A stretch of 22,140 nucleotides of DNA from a virus. The stretch spans positions 1-22,140 of IMG/VR virus record IMGVR_UViG_3300033143_001152; one strand, written 5' to 3'. The first letter of the stretch is position 1. Each line of letters starts with the position of its first letter. Below the pieces are notes generated by a model that was not told the DNA's origin, ran no database searches, and was given only the letters and a program-made list of their open reading frames with translations. Below are positions 2,869 through 17,048 of the stretch, piece by piece. A program made the position numbers and the translations under genes.

Positions 2869-3954
2869 ATGGCACTTCCAACTACATTTTTAACAACAAC
2901 TGCTATTGGCACTGCTTTGAGTAATGCTAGTAGAGATTTAAAAACACTATGTACCGATTCAAATGTTAATCCTTGGTCAAGGTATAAGCCGGGATATTTA
3001 GAGTCTGATGGAAGTGCAGACAGGTTTATAGTGTATCAAGAACCTCAAGGTTTAGGTTTTACAGACCCAAGAGGATATAATACAGATTCTCAATCAAGTA
3101 TAGAAGGTTTTAGATTAGGAGATTTCAGAGGATATAATCATTCTGCTCTTGCTCCTTATGTTACTTTTTCTGGTGTAACTATTGAATATGGTTCTGGAAC
3201 TGGAATTGCTACTGGATTGTCAATTCCATTTTATGCTCAAGAAGTTGAATGGTCAGATGCAGGAGTATATAGAGAAACTAATAATTGGGCTGGATTTACT
3301 CACGTTCTTGCATTAGACGATGATGATGGTAATGCTATCATAGGATCAGCAGAAATACCAGCTATTGATGGAAATGTTGATATTGATTTAGATGATATTA
3401 CATTAACTCCCGGTGTAACCGTTACTAAAAATATTCACATAGCTCTTGGAGTTGATGCAACTCACTGGTCTGTTAAACTTGGTACTAACTATGGTGCTGG
3501 TGGGATTGGACAAGTTAAAGTATTAGAGTTACTGGAAAGAGCACAGACGGATGCAGATTGGACTGACGCTGGAAGTACAAATATAACAGGTGGAGCTAAT
3601 GATCCTTATACTGATGTTACTATACCGGGAGGACAAAGTAAATCGTTCTCAGGGTCTAATGTTGCTATATGGCAATTTGATGGTGCTCATCCCTCATTTA
3701 GATGTGCTCATGCAGGAGGAACTGATGATTATACAAGAATGAACGCTGATTGGCTTATCAAAGGATTCAAAGATGAACCATCTGCTGAGTATATTGTTCA
3801 AACTGCACAAATATATGGTAACTCAGGAAATACTACTGTAACTCTACCCGGAGGTGGTTTAGCACGATCTGGTGGTGGAGACAACTCACCAAATCAGTTT
3901 ACTGATGGTGATGATATAACTTTAATATTTAAAAATATAACTATAGTATTTTAA
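2869..3954 (+). CDS. Virion surface or baseplate-like structural protein
   Basis: A 361-residue beta-rich protein. Near residues 28-46 it contains LCTDSNVNPWSRYKPGYLE. This motif, short loop then N-x-W-S-x-Y-K-P, is what I recall from N-terminal regions of tail or baseplate surface proteins in Bacteroidota phages and prophages. The rest is Gly/Asp/Thr-rich, with a DDDDGN segment and a glycine-rich C-terminal stretch (GGGLARSGGGDNS) that suggests a flexible or trimeric surface region. It follows the fibre gene after 25 bases and is presumably co-transcribed. A receptor-binding or fibre-associated role is inferred from context. The stop codon directly abuts a TTG promoter element. Confidence 0.55.
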   Translation: MALPTTFLTTTAIGTALSNASRDLKTLCTDSNVNPWSRYKPGYLESDGSADRFIVYQEPQGLGFTDPRGYNTDSQSSIEGFRLGDFRGYNHSALAPYVTFSGVTIEYGSGTGIATGLSIPFYAQEVEWSDAGVYRETNNWAGFTHVLALDDDDGNAIIGSAEIPAIDGNVDIDLDDITLTPGVTVTKNIHIALGVDATHWSVKLGTNYGAGGIGQVKVLELLERAQTDADWTDAGSTNITGGANDPYTDVTIPGGQSKSFSGSNVAIWQFDGAHPSFRCAHAGGTDDYTRMNADWLIKGFKDEPSAEYIVQTAQIYGNSGNTTVTLPGGGLARSGGGDNSPNQFTDGDDITLIFKNITIVF

Positions 3955-3986
3955 TTGGATATTAAAAATAAATGATTATCTTTACA
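3955..3986 (+). promoter_or_regulatory. Promoter with TATCTTTACA -7 box
   Basis: TTG (3955-3957) is followed by 19 bases and TATCTTTACA (3977-3986). The same ten bases occur at 4109 and 5301, both just before start codons, which argues that this is a real element. Transcription from here (about 3990) meets a strong terminator at 4031-4075 before any ORF. Confidence 0.55.
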
Positions 3987-3989
3987 AGT

Positions 3990-4075
3990 AATCGTGCGTA
4001 CTTTTGTTTTAGTTAAACAACCCTCTCTCCGAAACCCCCCTGTGCTGACATAACGCAGGGGGGTTTCAACTTTTT
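3990..4075 (+). ncRNA. Candidate small RNA of about 85 nt
   Basis: A promoter at 3955-3986 and a terminator ending near 4075 frame a segment with no ORF. The predicted RNA has a perfect 6-bp hairpin at 4004-4020 (TTGTTT, 5-base loop, AAACAA). A C/U-rich linker CCCTCTCTCC at 4021-4030 follows, then the long GC terminator hairpin. A single-stranded C/U-rich linker between two hairpins is typical of antisense small RNAs that pair with purine-rich ribosome-binding sites. The structure is read from the sequence; the function is inference. The segment could instead be only the 3' end of the fibre operon. Confidence 0.35.
4031..4075 (+). terminator. Strong intrinsic terminator
   Basis: GAAACCCCCCTG (4031-4042) pairs perfectly with CAGGGGGGTTTC (4056-4067). 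A G-T and a G-C pair extend the stem to 14 bp around a 9-base loop. AACTTTTT follows. It separates the fibre operon from the next operon. The A-rich 5' side is too short for efficient termination on the opposite strand. Confidence 0.85.
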
Positions 4076-4121: not shown

Positions 4122-4481
4122 ATGGAGAAAGTAGTAAGATTAATCAACATCCTTGATGAGAAGACCGTAGACAAGTTAGTTCTGCTAGACAGGCTAGTAA
4201 AGTTCTATGTCCAGTTCCTCAAGAAGTGGAGGAAAGCAGAAGTTACCTCCAATGGAACTCTTGTACGAGTGAAGTTCGCTTACTTAGATAAGTATGAGCG
4301 TGAGACTCACACTGAGAGAGAGTTTCCTATGAAGGATATTGAGAAGCGGATCAGCTCTTATAAAGGAAAGATCAAGAGAGAGTTTAATCAACGTCACGAG
4401 AACGAGCGTGTTCAGAGAGCTAAGACGCTTCGTAGGTGGCAAAACATTATAAAAGAAATGAGAAAAGATGCCGACGTTTAG
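4122..4481 (+). CDS. Basic helical protein of unknown function
   Basis: Counted from the ATG at 4122 the product has 119 residues. A longer reading from TTG 4086 would start inside the promoter and is rejected. The first 40 residues form an amphipathic helix (KLVLLDRLVKFYVQFLKKW). The middle is a short beta segment (TLVRVKFAYLDKYERETHTE), and the C-terminal 45 residues are very basic and helical (KREFNQRHENERVQRAKTL). The overall positive charge suggests nucleic-acid contact or assembly with an acidic partner, but no family is recognised. It is the first gene of the operon, and its last 14 bases overlap the next ORF. Confidence 0.65.
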   Translation: MEKVVRLINILDEKTVDKLVLLDRLVKFYVQFLKKWRKAEVTSNGTLVRVKFAYLDKYERETHTEREFPMKDIEKRISSYKGKIKREFNQRHENERVQRAKTLRRWQNIIKEMRKDADV

Positions 4482-5292: not shown

Positions 5293-5300
5293 AAATTATG

Positions 5301-5310
5301 TATCTTTACA
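5301..5310 (+). promoter_or_regulatory. Third TATCTTTACA element
   Basis: This is an identical 10-mer to those at 3977 and 4109, ending two bases before the ATG at 5313. No TTG lies 19-20 bases upstream (that position falls within ATGCCCAG), so the promoter may be weak or need an activator. If used, it would again give a leaderless mRNA. Confidence 0.4.
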
Positions 5311-5312
5311 AG

Positions 5313-5690
5313 ATGAAAAGAATTGAGACAAGGGATAACGAGTTTTTGATGCAGTTTCGAGACACGCTTCGAGACTCGTTCCCCCATGCTCTCGATTTAA
5401 CAGTAGACTATTACGTAGGAGAAGATAAAGGCGTTAGAGGACTGTACTTTACAATTACATCAAAATTCGGTATGCTTTATAATAAGCATGTGAAACTGAA
5501 GAATGGTGAGACAGTTTATGATGTCGAGGAGCCTTTTATGGATAAAGTCATTAATGACTTCGTTCTGCAAGGAATATCTTTTCTCAACCTCTTAGCTTTC
5601 GACAGCGTTAATCCTGAGAAAGTTGTAAAAGAGATTGAAGCTGTTCCATTCAGGAATAGTGCTCCCCGTAGACTCATATACCAAAACTAA
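5313..5690 (+). CDS. Unknown protein of about 125 residues
   Basis: The chosen start is the ATG at 5313 (MKRIETRDNEFLMQ). An in-frame ATG at 5298 adds five residues, but it would place the promoter-like box inside the coding region. The protein looks globular and soluble: an N-terminal helix (NEFLMQFRDTLRDSF), a beta-rich centre (DLTVDYYVGEDKGVRGLYF), a helix (VINDFVLQGISFLNLLAF) and a basic C-terminus. I do not recognise the family. Its TAA overlaps the ATG of the helix-turn-helix gene by one base, so the two are probably translated together. Confidence 0.6.
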   Translation: MKRIETRDNEFLMQFRDTLRDSFPHALDLTVDYYVGEDKGVRGLYFTITSKFGMLYNKHVKLKNGETVYDVEEPFMDKVINDFVLQGISFLNLLAFDSVNPEKVVKEIEAVPFRNSAPRRLIYQN

Positions 5691-11729: not shown

Positions 11730-11763
11730 TAATTTTATGGAAACTTTGCAAAGTTAAAATATT

Positions 11764-15584: not shown

Positions 15585-17048
15585 ATGAAGATTTCACCAT
15601 TTCAACTTTATGAATCAGAGGACATTACGGGTCTCGTAACCAAGTCACACTTGGGTCACAGATTTGGTATTGAGCCTCAACAAGCGTCTAAAGTTGCAAC
15701 AATGATTCATCAAGCGAATCTTGGTGCTACTGTAAATGCTTATCTAAACCAGTTTCCGACTAAGACGTTTGCGACTGATGATGATTTCACATGGGATATT
15801 ACCACTAATGGTAAGAAAAACATCCCTCTAGCAAAAGCTCAGGTAACTGAAGGAACCGCACTTGCTGCAACAGACAGAGCTGGTTTCAACTTTTCAGAGT
15901 TTTTCCTATATTTCCACGAGGCTTATTTCACTGACGTAAACGTTATTGTAGGTGAGCGTAACGAAGTTTATCCTATTCAGGTTCTTGAAGACCCTAAGAG
16001 TGTAGGTGGACTATGGCAATATAGAGTACGCCTGTTAACAGGTGATCCTGCACTGTTTATCCCTTATGATGAACTGCTTGTTGGAAAACGTTTCAGTAAG
16101 GACTTCTCACCAGTTGAGAAAGAACTTTCTGTTAAAGGTGGTGGAGTTCACTATACGTTCCCGTATAAGATGATGAACGCCATGACTATGATTCGTATGG
16201 AAGACACAATTCCGGGTAACATGATCGAAAGACCAGTTAAGTTCTCTTGGATTGATCCGATGATGAAAAAACTCATGACTACTTGGATGGACTATCGTTC
16301 ATACGAGCTAGAAATGCAATATCAAGATGAGATTAACCACATGCTTGTGTACGCAACGTCTAACAAGACTGCTGAAGGTACATACGTGCAGAAAGGTAAA
16401 TCAGGTAGAGTGATCCAGATGGGTGCTGGTATTAAGCAACAAATGGAAGCTGCCAACTATAATACATATAACCAATTTGACATTAAGAAATTTACTGAGA
16501 TGCTTCTTGACCTAACCGTTGGTAAGGTTGTTATGGGACAGCGTGAAGTAACTGTTCTTACTGGTGAGTGGGGAATGTATCAATTCCATGAGGCTCTTGA
16601 GTCTTATACTGCTCTCTATACTCCTGCAAGGGATAACCATCGTATCTTCAGTGGTGCTGGTAATTCAATGGGATTCAGAGGACAATTCTTAGAGTACATT
16701 GGACCAAACGGAATCAAAGTTAACATCGTTCACGATGCTCTGAAAGACGATTTCGCAAGGAACAAAGTATACTATCCCGGTAAGCAGGGTCTTGCTGAGT
16801 CATACGTGTATGACATTATGAATATGGGTACTAGTGATGGTAGACCAAATATTCAAAAAGTAGCTCTTGCCAAGTTTGGTGATATTAGAGGTTATGAAGC
16901 TGGTCTTCGTGATCCTTTCACAATTGGACAAGCAAACCGTGTAATGAGTAATCCTAAAGACGCTTGGACTGAGCATAGAGCTTATACAGGTGGAAGTATC
17001 GTTTACGATCCAACTAGGACTGCAACATACAAACCAATTATACTTTAA
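15585..17048 (+). CDS. Major capsid protein
   Basis: This 487-residue protein would have the HK97-type fold and form the shell. Order (terL, portal, scaffold, then this) and length fit. From memory, several segments resemble crAss-like capsid proteins: TWMDYRSYELEMQYQDEIN near residues 240-260, GKSGRVIQMGAGIKQQMEAA at 268-287, LTGEWGMYQFHEAL, FLEYIGPNGIKVNIVHD, and the C-terminal VYDPTRTATYKPIIL. The last resembles a DPTRT motif I associate with that group. There is no cleaved prohead segment, in line with a scaffold supplied by a separate gene. A ribosome-binding site is weak. A 36-residue-codon-free gap of 46 AT-rich bases precedes it. Confidence 0.8.
   Translation: MKISPFQLYESEDITGLVTKSHLGHRFGIEPQQASKVATMIHQANLGATVNAYLNQFPTKTFATDDDFTWDITTNGKKNIPLAKAQVTEGTALAATDRAGFNFSEFFLYFHEAYFTDVNVIVGERNEVYPIQVLEDPKSVGGLWQYRVRLLTGDPALFIPYDELLVGKRFSKDFSPVEKELSVKGGGVHYTFPYKMMNAMTMIRMEDTIPGNMIERPVKFSWIDPMMKKLMTTWMDYRSYELEMQYQDEINHMLVYATSNKTAEGTYVQKGKSGRVIQMGAGIKQQMEAANYNTYNQFDIKKFTEMLLDLTVGKVVMGQREVTVLTGEWGMYQFHEALESYTALYTPARDNHRIFSGAGNSMGFRGQFLEYIGPNGIKVNIVHDALKDDFARNKVYYPGKQGLAESYVYDIMNMGTSDGRPNIQKVALAKFGDIRGYEAGLRDPFTIGQANRVMSNPKDAWTEHRAYTGGSIVYDPTRTATYKPIIL

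Follow-up and report, generated by a model that had tools for sequence, protein, structure and literature searches.

A candidate small-RNA gene with its own predicted promoter and a shared terminator behind a fibre-like gene of a crAss-like phage

In a 22,140-base record of an uncultured virus, analysed over its whole length and hereafter called the window, a promoter-like sequence stands directly behind the stop codon of a putative fibre gene and runs into a strong terminator, which raises the question of what such a promoter is for. The phage is crAss-like and belongs to a group far from cultured isolates, judging by the major capsid protein (15585-17048; Pfam Crass_capsid match, 3e-126), a terminase matching a PHROG head-and-packaging family, and the capsids of annotated phages, the nearest of which are <40% identical to the window capsid. 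Among the viruses that infect Bacteroidetes, crAss-like phages rank with the most abundant. With moderate confidence, we read the element as a small-RNA gene, a putative phage counterpart of the type I 3'-UTR sRNAs, whose product most likely acts in trans. The basis of this reading is the anatomy of the locus, the conservation of its layout, and the conservation of a linker sequence in close relatives.

The preceding gene (2869-3954, plus strand; 361 aa, putative fibre or appendage protein) ends with the stop codon TAA at 3952-3954. The predicted promoter P1 (3955-3986, plus strand) is of the Bacteroidetes primary-sigma type, TTG-N19-TATCTTTACA, and begins immediately behind this stop codon, with the TTG at 3955-3957, 19 nt of spacer, and TATCTTTACA at 3977-3986; the sequence is as the initial annotation described it. 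Exact TATCTTTACA occurred three times in the window, each time on the plus strand (3977, 4109, and 5301). The Bacteroidetes consensus is TAnnTTTG at -7 and TTTG near -33 (PMC7366714), and the -7 box of P1, TATCTTTA, which stands 19 nt behind the TTG, agrees with the primary-sigma form TANNTTTG except that its final base is A where the consensus has G. In relatives, the -7 box was TANNTTTG or TANNTTTA, matching TANNTTTR, and the -33 TTG was recognisable in only 5 of 10 P1 promoters; in Flavobacterium johnsoniae, the -33 motif was likewise not recovered (PMC7366714). A scan for sigma-70-type promoters, which does not cover those of Bacteroidetes, yielded sites no more numerous than in shuffled sequences. 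A further promoter-like TACTTTTG was present at 3999-4006, so the predicted 5' end could lie near 3990 or, if set by this second element, near 4010. The chance of finding TANNTTTR at P1's distance in one shuffled interval of the window was ~9%; the match in the window alone is therefore unremarkable, and conservation decides.

The predicted small RNA (3989-4075, plus strand; ~85 nt, with the 5' end placed at ~3989-3991) was delimited by the promoter-terminator distance, by folding, and by the lack of a conserved ORF. Its predicted fold consisted of a small 5' hairpin, TTGTTT-TAGTT-AAACAA (about 4004-4020), an unpaired C/U-rich linker CCCTCTCTCC (4021-4030), and an intrinsic terminator (4031-4075), all on the plus strand; sequence and fold thus agreed with the hairpin, single-stranded linker, and strong terminator noticed in the initial annotation. 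The linker was 98% unpaired in the predicted ensemble. The terminator stem GAAACCCCCCTGTG/CGCAGGGGGGTTTC (4031-4067), reading GAAACCCCCC.../...GGGGGGTTTC and followed by the T-tract AACTTTTTAT, had an energy of -25.7 kcal/mol, and the preceding gene shares its 3' end, including this terminator, with the small RNA. The minimum free energy of the whole RNA was -29.6 kcal/mol vs. -17 for shuffles (z about -4), mostly contributed by the terminator. The built-in terminator scan of the window missed the 4031-4075 terminator; the likely reason is a loop and tail spacing beyond the limits set for the scan. Covariation, proposed earlier as a check, was found in part: compensatory changes were seen across relatives in the terminator stem, and there was no clean covariation in the 5' hairpin, which was predicted in five of five relatives of the A and C types defined below, with pairs not always identical. 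Rfam 15 gave no match to the RNA at the gathering threshold, and the lone match in the window was a weak His_leader on the minus strand (30.6 bits vs. a threshold of 49).

Relatives were found with the downstream 119-aa gene as the anchor. This yielded 11 distinct genomes carrying the gene together with upstream sequence; two contig pairs identical across the locus were each counted once. In every relative found, alignment showed this gene (4122-4481, plus strand) directly behind the element, as the first of its operon. Its product had no match in Pfam or PHROG, its predicted structure (pLDDT 80) had no PDB match at E<=0.001, and no homologue was present in annotated phages or, by a pattern scan, in GTDB genomes; therefore, no cultured phage with the element is known from these collections. 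The gene ahead of P1 was fibre-like in the window, coded for a 118-aa protein in the close relative L005, and was GIY-YIG-endonuclease-like in another, L004 (named by eye from sequence). The unit of P1, RNA, terminator, P2, and 119-aa gene was kept together while this upstream gene was replaced, which makes chance similarity within a conserved 3' end a less likely explanation. A noncoding gene can evidently stay in place while its neighbours are swapped.

Since the element was found only before the 119-aa operon, which was also the search anchor, the main rival explanation is an attenuated leader. P1 would then serve as an additional promoter for the downstream operon, read-through at the terminator and C/U stretch would be regulated (through an RNA, a protein, or antitermination), and the short RNA would be no more than an aborted leader. 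The position of the element directly ahead of this operon, even with a changed upstream gene, fits such a leader, as does the conserved linker adjoining the terminator stem, a possible antiterminator or protein site. Against it stands P2 (4086-4118, plus strand), a distinct promoter for the downstream operon (TTG-N20-TATCTTTACA in the window, TANNTTTR in relatives), which lies beyond the terminator and almost touches the ATG at 4122. A second TANNTTTR between terminator and ATG, 12-29 nt before the ATG, was present in 11 of 11 relatives; this bears out the earlier claim of an independent promoter for the next operon, and P1 is therefore not needed for its transcription. In the window, the 119-aa gene is probably near-leaderless when transcribed from P2. 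Moreover, a single strong terminator separated the stop codon from P2 in the genomes scanned, with energies of -13.5 to -25.7 kcal/mol wherever scored, no leader peptide was found, and no antiterminator fold was seen among the predicted folds. We consider the leader unlikely. The small-RNA reading of the initial annotation is supported here: promoter, body, and terminator are retained as a unit despite the change of upstream gene, and P2 is independent of them.

Two other putative regulatory sites were observed in the window. The third TATCTTTACA runs across the beginning of ORF 5298 (5298-5315; ATGTATCTTTACAAGATG), and the relatives retained TTGTATCTTTAYAA or TCGTACMTTTR at this place; the promoter element being kept over the annotated start, translation probably begins at the second ATG instead, again near-leaderless from this promoter. 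A perfect palindrome AACTTTGCAAAGTT (11740-11760), kept in G003, L006, and L008, lies between the terminase and portal genes and may serve the portal operon as promoter or operator.

Conservation of P1 and the linker in relatives had been set in advance as one test of the small-RNA reading, which withstood it. TANNTTTR occurred 47-60 nt ahead of the terminator stem in 10 of 11 relatives (all but L105), vs. 0.75 expected from shuffles of the same intervals, a count drawn from related genomes and so not from independent events. The spacing from promoter to terminator in this clade is ~35-50 bases, and the RNA would probably be short and regulatory throughout, ~75-90 bases long. The linker was conserved in the three closest genomes (group A: the window, L004, and L005) and recognisable in two more. 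RNAs of group A have in common ATTGTTTT...ACAA(C)YCTCTCTCCGAAA; their longest invariant run between the promoter and the terminator end was the 12-nt CTCTCTCCGAAA (p=0.0025, column shuffles), which spans the linker CCCTCTCTCC with GAAA. The two more distant genomes that form group C (L104 and L106) had this run in the version TTTCTCTG, with a hairpin and the related TTTCTCTGTAAC at the equivalent place. In the five genomes of group B (L098-L100, L102, and L103), the body was unrelated, lacked the C/U linker, and mostly contained TCATGATC; a further TACTTTTG was frequent there. The linker was unpaired at 78-99% in groups A and C and often paired in group B. As a general feature, the C/U linker named in the initial annotation did not hold, being absent from the most divergent relatives. 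Pattern scans of IMG/VR DNA for the linkers returned the known loci only; other matches were due to chance, inside unrelated sequence.

This divergence of RNA bodies between groups is what could be expected from a terminator preceded by a spare promoter, which fires into the terminator and gives a functionless RNA, or is a relic; conservation would then reflect the terminator and recent common ancestry. The chance frequency of TANNTTTR, ~3-9% per interval in such AT-rich DNA, points the same way. However, the intergenic sequences of groups A, B, and C did not align between groups, and the retention of P1 in all but one genome in spite of this points to selection; in group A, it was the linker that proved to be the best-conserved part of the RNA. 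As an internal control, strong terminators were listed in eight genomes or contigs: TANNTTTR was present in the preceding 110 nt at 8 of 8 focal terminators vs. 3 of ~34 others (Fisher p about 1e-6), so most other terminators of the same genomes lacked it. A functionless transcript is thus, in our estimate, quite improbable. That the RNA encodes a very small protein, e.g., from the GTG-started 19-codon frame at ~3995-4054, is nearly excluded and hardly credible at all: open frames of 14-35 codons occurred in several relatives, but frames, start positions, and peptides were not conserved, the frames ran into or through the terminator stem, and the nearest relative L096 had frames of 1-2 codons only, so that the statement of the initial annotation that no ORF lies between promoter and terminator was inexact as to the existence of a frame and right in that none is conserved.

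One of the three other terminators with TANNTTTR belonged to a second promoter-to-terminator noncoding unit of ~150 nt (L075:12580-12770; TTG...TATTTTTG, strong terminator), directly ahead of a tRNA-Pro gene; in Rfam, it had sub-threshold sRNA matches only. The same relative, a 99.8-kb crAss-like genome with 24 tRNA genes (L075, L076), carried a tmRNA gene (L079:13166-13487, IMGVR_UViG_3300042991_000159; ARAGORN tag GDNKVVPMYTNYYSRVAA; Rfam RF00023, 72 bits vs. a threshold of 47). Two other near-complete relatives had 1-3 tRNAs only.

Targets were sought by computing duplex energies of each genome's RNA against all of its gene starts and combining them by orthogroup (49 orthogroups; nine genomes or contigs). 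The top orthogroup score for phage gene starts was 14.3, which was equalled by 36 of 60 shuffled controls. The pairing of the linker CCCUCUCUCC with GGAGAG-type ribosome-binding sites, suggested earlier, was not borne out, as phage gene starts matched no better than they did shuffled RNAs; an antisense mechanism, with phage targets as the scope, is unsupported. The ribosome site of gene 8954 (GATAGGAGGGGATAATG; GATAGGAGAGGATAAAATG in the G003 orthologue) was among the best pairing matches in both genomes. We rejected it as a target, since the protein before it ends in a conserved ...DRRG*, encoded by this very stretch, and this C-terminus accounts for the sequence. Also rejected was the start of the 119-aa mRNA (ATGGAGAAAG): the window and L004 show pairing there, and L005 has lost it.

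For the small-RNA gene, we propose that host RNA polymerase would start at P1, directly behind the preceding stop codon, and halt ~85 nt on, at the terminator that would also end the mRNA of the preceding gene. The product would be noncoding, with a hairpin at its 5' end, then an exposed stretch rich in C and U, and finally the terminator hairpin. Through the exposed stretch, it would most likely act in trans, either on an RNA of the host (or a late one of the phage) or on an RNA-binding protein. Transcription, the 5' end, stability, trans action, and the target are what we infer in this scheme. A wider version, which we put forward tentatively and would not yet bet on, is a clade-wide sRNA of crAss-like phages with fixed promoter and terminator and a fast-changing, group-specific body of the CUCUCUCC, UUUCUCUG, or UCAUGAUC type, each type perhaps tuned to the RNAs of a different host, i.e., a host-takeover RNA working without Hfq. 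A correspondence between the group-specific bodies and different hosts, if one emerged, would add to the interest of the gene. The element offers one fixed, readily recognised place for the inspection of transcriptomes.

Full-text searches of open-licence papers turned up no crAss-like phage with a described regulatory RNA. The put antiterminator RNAs of phage HK022 are structured, lie directly behind their promoter, and act in cis to let polymerase read through terminators; here, in contrast, a strong terminator follows P1 closely, and a separate promoter serves the next operon. The phage sRNAs PreS (lambda), VpdS (VP882), and PAK_P4as15 resemble the candidate in being short phage noncoding RNAs with suspected base pairing (PMC12197685). 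PreS and VpdS depend on Hfq (PMC12197685), and none of the three comes from a crAss-like phage. Bacteroides has no obvious Hfq (PMC7366714), and a phage sRNA would therefore probably need another route. In Bacteroides thetaiotaomicron, a promoter together with an intrinsic terminator is the criterion for high-confidence intergenic sRNAs, and both features were present in 8 of 9 validated candidates (PMC7366714). Like these sRNAs, e.g., GibS (PMC7366714), the predicted RNA has a TANNTTTG-type promoter and a Rho-independent terminator, and is AT-rich and partly unstructured; unlike them, it belongs to a phage and is known from sequence alone, with the relation compared via Rfam only. The closest parallel in layout is the type I 3'-UTR sRNA, an RNA with a promoter of its own located at the 3' end of the gene before it (PMC7821165). 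As in MicL, DapZ, RsmW, and ArgX (PMC7821165), the candidate has a predicted promoter of its own just downstream of a coding sequence, and it too has the intrinsic terminator of the upstream gene in common with that gene. It differs from the bacterial type I sRNAs in being phage-encoded, in its Bacteroidetes-type promoter, and in an upstream gene that varies across relatives.
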